Source of the DNA: Bryobacterales bacterium
Lineage (GTDB): Bacteria > Acidobacteriota > Terriglobia > Bryobacterales > Bryobacteraceae
Assembly: GCA_003167495.1 (NCBI GenBank)
Contig: PMSX01000069.1
Location: forward strand, 1 to 44,442
Reading direction: 5' to 3'
Length of the DNA: 44,442 bases
Shown here piece after piece: positions 1,348 through 14,010 of the stretch. The translations under genes and the position numbers were made by a program. Numbering within the stretch: the first letter of the stretch is position 1; every line of letters starts with the position of its first letter. The notes beneath the pieces were generated by a model. That model searched no databases. It saw only the letters and a program-made list of their open reading frames with translations, and had not been told where the DNA came from.

Positions 1348-4206
1348 ATGATCGTGCGTTTCGGGCTCGCTTTCGGGTTGTGGGCGGCACTCGTAGGTTT
1401 TTCGCGTTCAAACTTCGCCGCTGCCCAAACCGCCTATCCACCCACGACTCCCTTCCTGCGAATCGAAACCGGCATGCACACGGCGCCGATCACGAGAATA
1501 GACATCGATGCAGCCGAACGCTTCCTCGTCACCGCTTCAGACGATAAGACGGCTCGCGTCTGGGATCTGAAGACTGGAACGCTGCTCCAGATCTTACGTC
1601 CCCCAGAAGGTACCGGAAGTGAGGGAATGCTTTATGCAGTCGCCATTTCACCCGACGGCGCAACTGTCGCCGTTGCCGGCCTCACCGGGCCTGACAGCGG
1701 ACCTTGGTCCGTCTATCTCTTCGACCGCGCCAGCGGCACTCTAACTCACACCATTCCTGGCTCTCCAGGCGTCATCAACCACTTGTCCTACTCACTCGAC
1801 GGCCGCTATCTCGCCGTCGCCCTCGGACGTTCGAGCGGCATCCGCGTGTACCGCGCGCCGGACTACACCGAGGCCTCGCGCGACTCCGGCTACGGCGATT
1901 CGTGCGATTGGGTTGAGTTCGACCGAACCGGACGGTTGGTAACAACCAGCCGGGATGGCTTCCTACGGCTCTACAACCAGGGTTCCCAATTGATTGCAAA
2001 GAAGAAAGCACCCGCCGGGACGCGGCCCTTCTCCGCCCGCTTCTCACCCGACGGCAGCAAAATAGCCGTCGGTTTCCAAGACACCACCGCCGTAAGCATC
2101 CTTTCCGGCCGCGACCTCGCATTTCTATCTGCCCCACAAACGCCCAGTGGCGGAGGAAGCCTCGCAAACGTAGCTTGGTCGCACGACGGATACACGCTGT
2201 ACGCAGGCGGAACGTATGCAGCCGAATTGAGGGTGATCGCATCATGGCTCAATGCGCGCGGGGAGCCTGCTTACTGGCCTGCGGCGCGAAGTACGATCAT
2301 GGAGATCCGCACGCTCTCGGACGGGCGAGTCATCTTCGGCGCCCAGGATCCCGCCGTCGGCGTGCTGGATCGTGCGGGACGCGTCCTCTGGCAGCACTCG
2401 GCCGAAGTTCTCGACTACCGCACGCCCGCAGGTCTGGTAAACCTTTCGCCAGAAGGTGTCATCGCCGAGTTCCGATTCCTCGTGACATCTGAGTCGCGCT
2501 GCGGCCGCTTCGACCTCACGCGTAGGCAAATGGCCCTCAACGTCAGCGCGGATTCGACGCTCACCGGACCACGGACAACTGGCTTAGGCATCAAGGATTG
2601 GGACGGCACCACTCAACCAACTCTCAACGGCGACGCCCTGCCGTTGGACTCGTACGAAAGATCCCGAAGTCTCGCCATTTCCGCGAAAGCAGACACCTTT
2701 TTGCTGGGCTCTGAGTGGCACCTGCGCCTCTTCGAGAGCGCCGGCCATCTCCTCTGGCAAACTCCGACACCCGGAGTCGCCTGGGCCGTCAACCTCACTC
2801 CCGACGGCCAATTCGCCGTCAGCGCCCTCGGCGACGGCACCATCCGCTGGTATCACACCACCAACGGCCAAGAAGTCATGGCCCTCTTCGCCGATCCCGA
2901 CGGCAAACGCTGGATTCTCTGGACCCCCGAAGGCTTCTACGATTCCTCCGAAAACGCCGACTCCCTCATCGGCTATCACCTCAACCACGGCCCCGATCAC
3001 GAAGGTGAGTTCGTCCACGTCGAACAACTCAAGCAACTCTTCTACCGCCCCGATCTCCTCGCCCAACGCCTCAAACCCGAAAGCGATAAGCTCTTCAGCG
3101 AAGCCCTCAACCAAATCGGCGACGTCTCCGCCATCCTCCACTCTGGCTCCCCTCCCGAACTCGCCCTCCTCTCACCACCCGAAAGCGACTCCGACAACGG
3201 CCAATTCACTCTCCAATTCAAAATCACCGATCACGGTGCCGGCCACGGACGCCTCGTCTATCGCATCGATGGCCAGGAGATGGAGGGACGAACCATTGCG
3301 CCTACCGGTGGCAAGAACACCGACACCGTTTCGCTCTTGTTTAATCTGCCTCCCGGCCGCCACACCCTTTCCGCATCGGCATACAACGGCGCTGGTAAAC
3401 TCGAATCCCGCTCGATTTCGTCCGTCGTAAACGTCAGGCAGCCTCAGCAGCGCCCCGCCCTCTATGTCCTCGCGGTCGGCATCAGTAATTATCGCGACCA
3501 TTCGCTCAATCCAGGCGTCAAATTCGCAGCCAACGACGCCGATATTATCGCCGCCCGTCTCAAGCAACAAGGCACTGGCCTCTTTCGCGAAGTCACCACG
3601 TACGTCTTGAAAGACGCCAACGCCTCCCGCGACAACATCGAGAAAACCGCCGCCCAAATTGCCGCAACCATCGGCCCCGCCGACGAATTCGTTTTCTATC
3701 TGGCAGGCCACGGCACCGCCATCAACGGCGAATACACGTTTGTACCGTGGAACGCAATCTATAGCGGCAGCGACGCCCTTCACGATCAAAGCCTGAATGA
3801 AGAACGGTTGCAAAACCTGCTCAAGAGCATTCCCGCCAGCAAAACCCTGCTGCTCCTCGATACGTGTAGCGCTGGTTCTGCCATCGCCGGACGCGATCCA
3901 ATCCTAAGCGAAAAAGGTTCCATTGAACGTTTATCCAAGCTCACCGGCCGCGCCACCATCGCGGCGTCAAGCAGCGACCAAATGGCGCTGGAGGGCTACG
4001 ACAATCACGGCGTCTTCACCTCCGCGTTGCTCGAAGGGCTCATCACTGCCGTCGATAAGGCCGGACTCATCCAGGTGAGCACACTCGCCGATTACGTCGA
4101 AGAACGCGTTCCAGCCATCACCCGCCAGCGCTGGGGTTACGAGCAATTCCCCATGCGCCTCATCACAGGCCAAACCTTCCCCATCGCAAAGAAGCAATCC
4201 CCTTGA
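1348..4206 (+). CDS. Secreted WD40 beta-propeller protein with C-terminal caspase (C14) domain
   Basis: This 952-residue protein starts with a hydrophobic signal-like segment ending near AAAQ (residues about 1-27), so it is probably exported. Residues about 35-690 carry WD40/quinoprotein-like blades (for example VWDLKTG and repeated 'SPDG' turns), a sensing or scaffold propeller. From about residue 705 the caspase/metacaspase domain follows: the first strand is YVLAVGISNY, the catalytic His lies in YLAGHGT (H788) and the catalytic Cys in LLDTCSAG (C840). Both dyad residues are present, so the peptidase should be competent, presumably cleaving after basic or acidic residues as C14 relatives do. 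A weak -10-like TATAGT lies at 1274-1279. The stop codon overlaps the TTG start of the TIR gene, which suggests translational coupling. The target and trigger are unknown. The remnant at 1-1098 is its paralogue. Confidence 0.9.
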   Translation: MIVRFGLAFGLWAALVGFSRSNFAAAQTAYPPTTPFLRIETGMHTAPITRIDIDAAERFLVTASDDKTARVWDLKTGTLLQILRPPEGTGSEGMLYAVAISPDGATVAVAGLTGPDSGPWSVYLFDRASGTLTHTIPGSPGVINHLSYSLDGRYLAVALGRSSGIRVYRAPDYTEASRDSGYGDSCDWVEFDRTGRLVTTSRDGFLRLYNQGSQLIAKKKAPAGTRPFSARFSPDGSKIAVGFQDTTAVSILSGRDLAFLSAPQTPSGGGSLANVAWSHDGYTLYAGGTYAAELRVIASWLNARGEPAYWPAARSTIMEIRTLSDGRVIFGAQDPAVGVLDRAGRVLWQHSAEVLDYRTPAGLVNLSPEGVIAEFRFLVTSESRCGRFDLTRRQMALNVSADSTLTGPRTTGLGIKDWDGTTQPTLNGDALPLDSYERSRSLAISAKADTFLLGSEWHLRLFESAGHLLWQTPTPGVAWAVNLTPDGQFAVSALGDGTIRWYHTTNGQEVMALFADPDGKRWILWTPEGFYDSSENADSLIGYHLNHGPDHEGEFVHVEQLKQLFYRPDLLAQRLKPESDKLFSEALNQIGDVSAILHSGSPPELALLSPPESDSDNGQFTLQFKITDHGAGHGRLVYRIDGQEMEGRTIAPTGGKNTDTVSLLFNLPPGRHTLSASAYNGAGKLESRSISSVVNVRQPQQRPALYVLAVGISNYRDHSLNPGVKFAANDADIIAARLKQQGTGLFREVTTYVLKDANASRDNIEKTAAQIAATIGPADEFVFYLAGHGTAINGEYTFVPWNAIYSGSDALHDQSLNEERLQNLLKSIPASKTLLLLDTCSAGSAIAGRDPILSEKGSIERLSKLTGRATIAASSSDQMALEGYDNHGVFTSALLEGLITAVDKAGLIQVSTLADYVEERVPAITRQRWGYEQFPMRLITGQTFPIAKKQSP

Positions 4207-11754: not shown

Positions 11755-12249
11755 TCAGTTCTTCCCCGCTTGCTCAATGCGCGCAACGTACCGCGTGCAA
11801 ATCCACAAGGGTATGGCTCCAAGAACACCAAAGCTGCAATCGATCAAGCGCCAATAAAACGGTATGTCCCGAGCTTCGCCGGCAATCAGGGCGAATGGCA
11901 CCACCGCCGCGCAGTTCAGCAAGCCGAATGTGAATAACCATTTATTCCGGACCGGATCGCGCCACGCACCGATGAACGCCGCCGCAATCACCAAATGCGC
12001 AAACCCCAGCCAATCGGTGCCATAAGCCAGAAATGGATATTGTTGGCCAGTCGATTCCAGAACCTCATCCACCTTGTTCAGCCACAGTATCAACGCCGAT
12101 TGCGCAGGCGCGCCCAAATGCCGAAGGACACCAATCACCATAGGCAGTTCTGTCCGTAGCGGGAAAGCCGTCAAACCGCTGAGCACGAGACCCAGCATGA
12201 AAACTCCCAGGTAAATGCGCAACCTGTTTACCAATTGGCTTATCGGCAT
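11755..12249 (-). CDS. Four-helix membrane protein downstream of retron RT
   Basis: A protein of about 164 residues with four predicted membrane helices (around LGVFMLGLVLSGL, FAHLVIAAAFIGAW, WLFTFGLLNCAAVVPFALIAG and FGVLGAIPLWICTRYV) and an N-terminal amphipathic start (MPISQLVNRLRIY). The ATG used leaves 8 nt after the reverse-transcriptase stop; an earlier in-frame start at 12282 would overlap the RT end. Either way the two are almost certainly co-transcribed. Retrons commonly pair with an effector gene, and Ec48-type retrons use a two-helix membrane protein, so this could be the effector. Against that, I recall similar proteins ('GTDWL.FAH...RDPVRN') as a widespread family not tied to retrons, so the effector role is only a hypothesis. 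Confidence 0.75.
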   Translation of the reverse strand: MPISQLVNRLRIYLGVFMLGLVLSGLTAFPLRTELPMVIGVLRHLGAPAQSALILWLNKVDEVLESTGQQYPFLAYGTDWLGFAHLVIAAAFIGAWRDPVRNKWLFTFGLLNCAAVVPFALIAGEARDIPFYWRLIDCSFGVLGAIPLWICTRYVARIEQAGKN

Positions 12250-12257
12250 GTCAGACT

Positions 12258-13577
12258 CTATTGTCCCCCGTTCGGCTCCCATTCAATCCCCTCCAGTATT
12301 CTTTCCAGCTTCGTTCCCTTCTCTAGATGAATCGCTTTCACAAACGCCACTCTGCCCTGCAAATGCGCCCGGAAATCCACGTGTCCCTCGCGGTTCTGGC
12401 TCGCCGGCCCCACTCGCAGACAATTCGTCAAGATCGCCTTCAACTCATCAAAATCCGTGCGCCTCACATTCAAACGCTCATTCACTACCAGCCCGGCCAC
12501 GTGTTGCCGCACACTCTGCCGCATGATCCGCGTCTTCCGGTGATGAACCGCAAACCCTTCTTCCGCCACAATCGCCGCGGCGTGAATGCCGAATCGTTCC
12601 GCGCACTTTTCAAAATCCTCGCCGCCGGAAAAAGCAAGATCATCGGCATAACGCGTATAGCGCGCGCCCGCCACCTCCGCTAGCCCGCTTAGGCGGCAGT
12701 CTACATGATATGCGCACAAGTTGGCTAGCGCCGGCGACGTCGGAGCGCCCTGCGGCAAATGCGGCCGGCAATAAAGCAGTTGCGTTTTCCGGCCAACTGC
12801 CTTCCAAATCTCCTTCGGTGCGGCATTGCTGCACAAGCCGCCCAACAAATCCGCCACTCCCTCCGGATATCCAAACGTGCGAAACAGGCTTTGTACCCGC
12901 GCGCCCGAAATCGAGGGAAAGAAGTCCTGCAAATCCATCTTCAAGACAATGCGCTGCCCCACATGCGGAGCGCAAAATGTTTGAATTGACCGGCCCTTCC
13001 GAAAACCATGCACCGCATCGTGCATCGGTATCCGCTCCAGAATCCCGCCCAGTATCCGTTGCTGCAGCTCTTTCAACCTTTTTTTCGGAGCTTCAATCAA
13101 CCGCGCGCTAGCTGAATCCTTCTGCAAAACGCGGTACCAATAATGCTGCAGTCTCGGATTCCGTTGTTTGTTGCCCAACTCATCCAAATCGGCGAACCAC
13201 TCCAACTCACCAGGCGTCACGTCCAACCAAGTTGCCAGTTTGCCTATCGTCTCAATGCGGGGTAGTTTCCAATTCCGCGCCGCTGCCACCGGCTGCATCG
13301 TCGGCGAGTCTTCCAGCCACTGACTGATCTCAAGAGTCTTTGAGTGACGCTCAATGGCGCGACAAAACCGCTTGTCCGCGTGCAGGAAACCGACAACGTC
13401 GGAATGCCGGGGCCGAGTGCCTTTGGCGAGCGCCTTCTGATAGCGCACCGCTAGCGGCCGAAGCCACCGCCAACGCCGTCCCAAGACTCGAATGCTTCGT
13501 TCGACGATCGCGTCCGGCGCGGCGTCGCCCGCCACAAACGCGCTTGCCAACAGCTGGACCAACGACGGTGTGAACAT
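12258..13577 (-). CDS. Retron-type reverse transcriptase
   Basis: A 439-residue protein. The RT core runs from about residue 160 to the end: HGFRKGRSI, the first catalytic Asp in KMDLQDFFPSI (D215), LPQGAPTSP (Q276), TRYADDLAFSG (YADD 310-313) and a thumb with VAGLVVNERLNVRR (360-362 in the place of the retron VTG motif). Fingers, palm and the LCAYHVDCRL helix closely resemble the myxobacterial Mx162-type retron RTs as I recall them, and so does the long N-terminal extension (about 150 residues, with LGRRWRWLRPLAVRY). The NAxxH position appears as FCAPH. ATG 13577 follows the a2 repeat by 12 nt with AGAG upstream; 18 extra codons upstream in frame fall inside the ncRNA and are rejected. It should copy the msd part of the RNA at 13590-13756 into msDNA. 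Confidence 0.93.
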   Translation of the reverse strand: MFTPSLVQLLASAFVAGDAAPDAIVERSIRVLGRRWRWLRPLAVRYQKALAKGTRPRHSDVVGFLHADKRFCRAIERHSKTLEISQWLEDSPTMQPVAAARNWKLPRIETIGKLATWLDVTPGELEWFADLDELGNKQRNPRLQHYWYRVLQKDSASARLIEAPKKRLKELQQRILGGILERIPMHDAVHGFRKGRSIQTFCAPHVGQRIVLKMDLQDFFPSISGARVQSLFRTFGYPEGVADLLGGLCSNAAPKEIWKAVGRKTQLLYCRPHLPQGAPTSPALANLCAYHVDCRLSGLAEVAGARYTRYADDLAFSGGEDFEKCAERFGIHAAAIVAEEGFAVHHRKTRIMRQSVRQHVAGLVVNERLNVRRTDFDELKAILTNCLRVGPASQNREGHVDFRAHLQGRVAFVKAIHLEKGTKLERILEGIEWEPNGGQ

Positions 13578-13589
13578 GCGATCTCTATT

Positions 13590-13606
13590 ACGGCGGAACG
13601 CTCCAA
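13590..13606 (-). repeat. Retron a2 arm
   Basis: On the minus strand this reads ttggagcgttccgccgt and pairs with a1 at 13739-13755. Only two of 17 positions differ from perfect complementarity, and one of those is a G-U wobble. In retrons the a1/a2 duplex places the branch G beside the start of reverse transcription, which here would be opposite about base 13607. Confidence 0.85.
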
Positions 13607-13620
13607 CGAGTCTCACTCTG

Positions 13621-13659
13621 CGCGAACACAACTGCCTGCAGGGCAGAGCAGTTCACGCG
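13621..13659 (-). other. Candidate msd hairpin
   Basis: In the minus-strand RNA, CGCG (13659-13656) pairs with CGCG (13624-13621), and AACTGC (13653-13648) pairs with GCAGTT (13635-13630). An alternative fold pairs CGTGAAC with GTTCGCG, with an inner CTGCC/GGCAG stem. Both give an imperfect stem of about 39 nt, short but of the kind seen in small msDNAs. Which fold is used cannot be decided by eye. Confidence 0.6.
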
Positions 13660-13683
13660 ACGAAATCTTACTCATCCACGTTC

Positions 13684-13702
13684 CCTTGGGGTAACCCCAA
13701 AG
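13684..13702 (-). other. msr stem-loop 2
   Basis: On the minus strand CTTTGGGG pairs with CCCCAAGG around a TTA loop: eight pairs, one of them G-U. It lies in the middle of the ncRNA, between stem-loop 1 and the msd hairpin. No T-run follows, so it is not a terminator. Confidence 0.7.
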
Positions 13703-13707
13703 AGGCA

Positions 13708-13729
13708 CAATCAAACCGAAGTCCGACTG
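13708..13729 (-). other. msr stem-loop 1 with UUCG tetraloop
   Basis: On the minus strand CAGTCGGAC pairs with GTTTGATTG around TTCG: nine pairs, three of them G-U, closed by C(UUCG)G, one of the most stable RNA tetraloops. The G-U pairs would not form in DNA, which points to an RNA function. It starts 8 nt after the branch-site G. Confidence 0.72.
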
Positions 13730-13738
13730 ACACCAAGC

Positions 13739-13755
13739 TTGTAGCGCTCCGCCGT
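13739..13755 (-). repeat. Retron a1 arm followed by AGC branch motif
   Basis: On the minus strand this reads acggcggagcgctacaa and is complementary to a2. The duplex stops exactly at the AA before G13738 (G13738 faces G13607 and cannot pair), leaving an unpaired AGC as in characterised retrons. Confidence 0.85.
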
Positions 13756-13762
13756 CATCGGC

Positions 13763-13790
13763 ATCATAACAATTTCTTTGAGATTGTGAA
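13763..13790 (-). promoter_or_regulatory. Promoter of the retron ncRNA-RT operon
   Basis: On the minus strand TTCACA (13790-13785, five of six matches to the -35 consensus) and TATGAT (13768-13763, five of six to the -10 consensus) are separated by 16 bp. Initiation 6-7 nt downstream falls at about 13757-13756, exactly the 5' edge of the a1 arm. The coincidence of promoter and ncRNA end supports both calls. Confidence 0.7.
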
Positions 13791-13807
13791 TCATTGCCAT
13801 ATCTCAA
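13778..13807. promoter_or_regulatory. Inverted repeat around the retron -35 box (operator candidate)
   Basis: On the plus strand TTGAGAT (13778-13784) and ATCTCAA (13801-13807) are perfect inverted half-sites 16 bp apart; the -35 hexamer of the retron promoter lies immediately inside one of them. The geometry suits a dimeric repressor or activator. No regulator gene is adjacent. Confidence 0.4.
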
Positions 13808-13818
13808 GCCTCGACGAA

Positions 13819-13907
13819 GCAAAATTGGGGACTGCCACAGCGCCCGGAATCGGCCCGATACGAAGCCGCCCGCCCAACCATCGCGTGCTGGCTGTCCCCA
13901 TTTTTGC
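13819..13907. repeat. 89-bp imperfect palindrome (REP/MITE-like)
   Basis: The plus strand starts gcaaaattggggactgcc (13819-13836) and ends ggctgtccccatttttgc (13890-13907). The arms are complementary over 18 positions with two A-A mismatches, and the 53-bp middle has further short inverted stretches (ATCGGGCCGAT). The TGGGGAC/GTCCCCA ends resemble dispersed REP-type repeats I recall from several phyla. No other copy lies in this window. Because it lies upstream of the retron promoter, it is unlikely to be part of the ncRNA, though that was considered. Confidence 0.6.
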
Positions 13908-14010
13908 GCTGTTCGCTGCCTCATCGCTCCATCGCCGAAAGTCACCGCCCGTTCAAGCAGCACCCCGTCTTCGCCGTTCTTCTCGGCTTCTGTCTCCCAG
14001 CCATGCCGTT
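13908..14010 (-). other. Open non-annotated stretch, possible coding remnant
   Basis: On the minus strand one frame is open from the stop codon at about 14011 into the palindrome (residues such as GWETEAEKNGEDG). It has no credible start and runs straight into the inverted repeat. It could be the tail of a degraded gene carried with the REP-like element, perhaps a REP-associated transposase, but there is no recognisable motif. Confidence 0.2.

Follow-up and report, generated by a model that had tools for sequence, protein, structure and literature searches.

A probable retron with no recurrent neighbour gene in a Bryobacterales contig

Contig PMSX01000069.1 of the Bryobacterales assembly GCA_003167495.1, whose entire 44,442 nucleotides (nt) were analyzed and are hereafter called the window, carries a reverse transcriptase (RT) gene preceded by a structured RNA. 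The question raised by this locus is whether the two form a retron and, if so, how it would act with no effector gene found beside it. The locus was found to contain a retron-class RT with a YxDD motif, an a1/a2 inverted repeat, an AGC after a1, and msr and msd hairpins, with the RNA lying directly upstream of the RT. It is very probably a retron, composed of a conserved a1-msr-msd-a2 RNA and its RT, with priming likely from G13738 to give a branched, RNA-linked DNA of about 60-75 nt. It has the appearance of a solo retron of the sort long described from myxobacteria, its RT bearing a helical N-terminal domain.

The locus had been singled out by a reading of the sequence made without database searches, hereafter called the original prediction, and most of the anatomy proposed there was confirmed (Table 1). 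The two 17-nt arms, 13755-13739 and 13606-13590, form 15 Watson-Crick pairs, one G-U pair (13747/13598) and one A-G mismatch (13742/13603). With Watson-Crick pairs only, they are the sole match of at least 15 of 17 positions at a span of 132-200 nt in the window. The duplex had been said to end beside an unpaired AGC; the GC does follow the duplex, but A13739 is paired within it and the unpaired run starts at G13738. The UUCG, UUA-loop and msd hairpins expected between the arms were all seen in the fold of RNA 13757-13588 (-82.9 kcal/mol, z -6.1), and none of 200 shuffles folded to as low an energy. The RT was also found where expected, with 12 nt separating the end of a2 at 13590 from the ATG at 13577. 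The proposed promoter fared less clearly: a site matching at 10 of 12 positions is present and its -10 element is kept in relatives, but one such site was found in a scan for which shuffles gave 0.7 on average (standard deviation 0.9), so that it is weak taken alone. In the relatives, the hexamer closest to TATAAT has its end 20-27 nt ahead of the branch G and matches at a mean of 4.41 of 6 positions, versus 3.46 of 6 in shuffles; 17 of 32 RNAs reach 5 of 6, and four reach just 3 of 6.

Table 1 Features of the locus, in window coordinates.
Feature	Position	Strand	Basis
a1 arm of the a1/a2 duplex	13739..13755	-	Folding, arm pairing, covariation
a2 arm	13590..13606	-	Folding, arm pairing, covariation
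AGC with predicted 2'-5' priming guanosine G13738	13737..13739	-	Columns invariant in 26-row alignment; retron role as described in PMC6868368
msr stem-loop 1 (UUCG loop)	13704..13734	-	Folding; stem in relatives
msr stem-loop 2, GGGGUUACCCC core, most conserved element	13683..13703	-	Folding, consensus, helix 2 covariation
Conserved AUUUCGUCGCG, 5' side of msd, near predicted cDNA (complementary DNA) end	13656..13666	-	Consensus; putative role
msd hairpin, predicted cDNA template	13620..13658	-	Folding; helices 3 and 4 in covariation count
Conserved GACUCG immediately ahead of a2, predicted start of the template (cDNA 5'-CGAGTC)	13607..13612	-	Consensus; putative role
Predicted cDNA (multicopy single-stranded DNA, msDNA) sense, up to about 74 nt, or about 60 nt with an end at 13666	13607..13680	+	Predicted from anatomy
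Promoter-like site TTCACA (13790-13785), 16-nt spacer, TATGAT (13768-13763)	13763..13790	-	10/12 matches; -10 kept in relatives
Retron reverse transcriptase, 439 amino acids, YADD	12258..13577	-	Family, structure and alignment matches

The DNA upstream of related RTs commonly shows one order of elements: a TATnnT-like box, an a1 with AA at its end, GC, a hairpin whose loop is often UUCG-like, a GGGGUUACCCC hairpin, AUUUCGUCGCG, the msd hairpin, GACUCG, and an a2 beginning with UUGG. Twenty-six of these RNAs were aligned, leaving out the duplicates L015, L028 and L036, together with L009 (the same as the window), L021, L033, L035, L041, L042, L048 and L053, and with the start of L049 set by hand; the A, G and C columns of the branch triplet are invariant in all 26. 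In the 32-pair structure given by RNAalifold, 93.5% of cells are paired versus 81.9% in shuffled alignments, 22 of the 32 pairs show double-sided changes that keep the pair (shuffled mean 10.4), and the covariation score is 0.360 versus 0.142. None of 500 shuffles reached the observed pairing, double-change count or covariation score. Sliding the partners by 1-3 columns lowered pairing to 38-50%, a control in which this structure has an advantage, since it came from the same alignment. The original prediction was staked on homologs that keep the RT also showing compensating changes in a1/a2, and double-sided changes were found in 10 of the 12 pairs of this helix (helix 1), with 88.4% of its cells paired; helix 2, the second msr stem-loop, reached 98.6%. 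At the position of msr stem-loop 1, a stem of at least 7 pairs was present in 30 of the 31 RNAs that were cut out; 35 were tried, four (L048, L120, L121 and L122) being left out as missed by the stem-2 pattern, and the segments of the window and L010 began too early and took in a1 bases. A search of Rfam 15 with the retron RNA gave no gathering match, and E values up to 10 gave two meaningless ones. The RNA is thus a family absent from Rfam 15, a comparison outside which lie the RNA models of Mestre 2020 and the separate msr-msd models described for PADLOC (PMC9252829).

A covariance model built from the aligned RNAs, hereafter called R1, was run on 54 sources, a search against homologous RT loci that the original prediction had proposed as a check. 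Full-length matches were obtained in 33 of them, including seven loci outside model building (L021, L033, L035, L041, L042, L048 and L053). Across 237 genomes of the window's family, the RT was found in 34 (E up to 1e-60), the RNA in 38, and both in 32, with the RNA upstream on the same contig in 31 of these 32. In G134 the RNA and RT are on two contigs, and in G136 a strong RNA match lies about 230 nt from the RT match. Two RT-bearing genomes are without the RNA, and in both the RT match begins at a contig edge. Six genomes have the RNA without a counted RT: in G020 the RT missed the E cut, one is cut by a contig edge, two contain RT wrecks, one has a damaged RNA and no RT, and one has a 54-nt msd fragment. 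Among the 237 genomes, no intact RNA was seen on a contig long enough for an RT yet without an RT or remnant.

The RT frame runs from the ATG at 13577 to the stop at 12258, with the predicted YADD at residues 310-313, and both catalytic aspartates of this motif are kept in all 54 aligned RT rows. The ratio of nonsynonymous to synonymous substitution rates (dN/dS) against a 72%-identical relative is 0.133. In a Foldseek search with the RT, the top 18 matches were all retron RTs. The best PADLOC models were RT_other (PDLC02949, 488.7 bits) and RT_outgroup (PDLC03740, 460.1 bits), which match nearly the whole RT, including most of its N-terminal extension, and whose names carry no type or effector. 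The original prediction had known of no description of this retron; this holds for the locus in the literature searched for retrons of acidobacteria and Bryobacter, but PADLOC already has a family for this RT class, and the locus adds a member to a known but untyped kind of retron RT. The next best model, RT_XIII (332.7 bits), covers residues 97-429 only. A tree built from 41 RTs places every one of the 32 RNA-bearing rows in one clade of 34 (support 100/100); the remaining seven, a neighbouring group with RT_XIII as best match, were scanned and none has the window-type RNA. The RTs L054-L057, from the window's phylum, have RT_XIII as their best match and carry N-terminal extensions; this RNA is absent from all of them.

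Ahead of the RT part lies an N-terminal extension of about 100 residues with five predicted helices. This domain has no Pfam match, and a Foldseek search with the domain alone gave no match below E 2.2 (predicted local distance difference test score of the model 75.4). Among the 120 listed of its 191 relatives, 116 have an RT domain and four (P0122, P0146, P0154 and P0192, 254-359 amino acids) are without a listed domain. Compared with the RT of Ec86 (Eco1), the window RT has about 90-100 extra residues ahead of the aligned part; Ec86 has a linked effector (title of 7v9x), and none was found here. By its N-terminal extension the locus resembles the myxobacterial solo retrons, a likeness of description rather than of aligned RTs. 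To our knowledge, no effector is linked to the myxobacterial retrons Mx162, Mx65 and Sa163. These have an extended RT N-terminus and an AGC priming site according to PMC6868368, and both features are also present here. The msDNA of Mx162 is 162 nt, versus about 60-75 nt predicted here, and msDNA is described in 27 of 28 myxobacterial strains (PMC6868368), versus the RT in 34 of 237 family genomes.

Recent retron work, as described in PMC12548924, is mostly about three-part systems that kill the infected cell through an effector. From 29 retron loci, 348 neighbouring open reading frames (ORFs) were clustered, taking flanks of up to about 8 kb, smaller on short contigs. The most widespread family was present at six of the 29 loci, and to judge from their sequences the recurrent families seem to be large groups of paralogs within these genomes. 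Of 131 neighbouring ORFs of at least 150 amino acids within 4 kb, 90 were scanned for families. Pfam names for the best 25 of 101 families largely denote metabolism, transport and housekeeping (aconitase, RecA, pyruvate kinase, permeases). PADLOC matches were scattered, with at most two members per family among 25 of 34 families and one member each for the PD-T4-6 models. No recurrent linked effector gene was found among these neighbours, so the retron was filed under no numbered type.

Several observations weigh against reading the locus as a retron, or against a phage-related role for it. When G-U pairs are allowed, 16 placements on the minus strand of the window reach 16 of 17, these arms included, so the arms were not decisive alone and comparison had to decide. 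The predicted cDNA folded alone has a z of only -2.06, with 9 of 200 shuffles as good. A full-length RNA match is missing from 21 of the 54 sources, 18 of which are more distant RT matches; the other three (L038, L045 and L051) begin at the edge of a contig, upstream of the RT. The L021 match is full-length by name alone, given a large internal deletion, and L033 and L041 are weak independent tests of R1 as near relatives (L032/L033, L040/L041). In the actinobacterial loci L123 and L124 the triplet at the branch place is AGG or AGA, not AGC, and other letters differ too. Region X of the RT reads FCAPH instead of NAXXH, and motif 7 reads VAG instead of VTG. Both regions X and Y align with those of the Ec86 RT, and of the 54 rows, 47 have A at position 361 and three have T. 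According to PMC6868368, NAXXH is present in 14 of 16 validated retron RTs and VTG at the start of region Y in 14 of 16, which makes them frequent, not universal. A beta-propeller gene adjoins the RT at three of the 29 loci, namely in the window, in L080 and, convergently from the opposite strand, in L105; two of the beta-propeller neighbours, those of the window and G007, are orthologous. Finally, nothing found here points directly to a phage role, as few scanned neighbours match defence models and a linked effector was not found.

Typed retrons usually carry an effector, and in view of the neighbour counts, with no family at more than six of 29 loci, a defence effector might be encoded elsewhere in the genome. 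Such a split system is compatible with the retron reading, of which it is a branch, and we hold it to be possible but doubtful: nothing links any unlinked gene to the retron. Much less probable is a three-part retron whose effector is the hydrophobic 164-residue membrane protein encoded at 11755-12249, on the same (minus) strand, starting 8 nt after the RT stop. Some typed retrons have membrane effectors, but this ORF matches no Pfam, PADLOC or NCBIfam family, and its homologs in three other genomes of the genus are all away from retrons: in G010 homolog and retron are on different contigs, and neither G012 nor G016 has an RT match at E up to the 1e-60 cut. In G007, which has a 72%-identical retron, the beta-propeller gene comes directly after the RT and the membrane ORF is not in between. 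On these two grounds, homologs away from retrons and absence behind the G007 retron, the ORF was rejected as the retron effector. An empty site was not definable, as tblastn gave no PSD798 match in other loci of the genus around the propeller gene; in G007 about 4.3 kb lies between the start of the cytochrome (PSD) gene and the retron.

It is likewise improbable, and slightly more so, that the RNA is a genuine partner or template of the RT whose product differs from classical 2'-5' branched msDNA, made for example by a system like the defence-associated reverse transcriptases, with another initiation; the altered NAXXH and VTG motifs would fit such a product, and the cDNA itself is predicted. 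That the fold is a chance or regulatory structure, such as a leader or attenuator of the RT gene, is very improbable indeed, since the 16 G-U-allowed placements that would favour it are outweighed by covariation, cross-phylum conservation and joint decay with the RT.

For the retron reading, the following course can be proposed. One transcript would run from about 13756 through the RNA and RT, starting from the promoter-like site at 13790/13763. The a1/a2 duplex would set G13738 beside the 3' end of the msd, and the RT would prime at the 2'-OH of this residue, with the cDNA starting opposite 13607. The msd would be copied from 13607 towards 13666-13680, stopping near the conserved AUUUCGUCGCG, and host RNase H would strip the template to leave RNA-linked DNA. 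The priming, copying and template-removal steps follow retron biology as described in PMC6868368 and PMC8989520. Given no linked effector, the RT-msDNA complex would act via its own helical N-terminal domain or an unlinked host partner. With low confidence, the complex is proposed to sense phage attack and to give its output by either route; msDNA synthesis, its length and an anti-phage role are all predictions.

Several named relatives of the locus are labelled Terriglobia, Terriglobales or Bryobacteraceae. Further afield, Uliginosibacterium L003, a training row of R1, has an RNA match of 103.8 bits, and three Burkholderia plasmid records outside the training set match at 58-60 bits. The actinobacterial plasmids L123 and L124 match R1 at best partially (23.6 bits); by pairing, each has two 15-nt arms that mismatch at no more than one position and enclose further hairpins over a span of 152 nt, with a2 ending 13 and 19 nt before the RT. 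The RNA family thus appears to extend to Betaproteobacteria, by covariance search, and to two actinobacterial plasmids, by pairing. No relative of the RT and no exact stem-2 pattern was found in viral contigs; 45 phage records had distant RT matches, of which none covered 80% of the query. An RT_other match was present in three of 14 control genomes. We suggest tentatively, as a speculation that may well not hold, a class of retrons without effectors, crossing phyla (Acidobacteriota, Betaproteobacteria, Actinomycetota), that would share one RNA architecture, use the RT helical N-terminal domain as output module, and sit among housekeeping genes rather than in defence islands, with self-contained phage sensing or a housekeeping msDNA role needing no partner gene.

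Insofar as selection maintains both RT and RNA in this clade and no recurrent neighbour was found, the function of myxobacterial-style solo retrons becomes testable in a new group. The covariance model makes an untyped RT class searchable as an RNA family, and the compact msr-msd templates of about 170 nt are possibly useful for DNA production in cells.

Four loci (L115, L116, L118 and L119) are decaying retrons in which the RT is broken, a remnant or missing and the RNA is truncated or damaged, which suggests that the whole unit was lost in some genomes. A single RT in L042 is preceded by two successive R1 matches on the minus strand (2788-2936 and 3009-3190). The match adjoining the RT is weak, at 25.8 bits, and the one farther upstream is strong, at 98.2 bits; the arrangement is possibly due to a decayed duplicate. 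Just upstream of the retron promoter in the window, at 13810-13915, lies a palindromic repeat of about 100 nt with CAAAATTGGGGAC / GTCCCCATTTTTG ends. In a search for its mover, just short weak matches were seen, near two of nine Y1-transposase genes. The repeat has 40 matches in its own genome, itself included (40 of 63 scored candidates).
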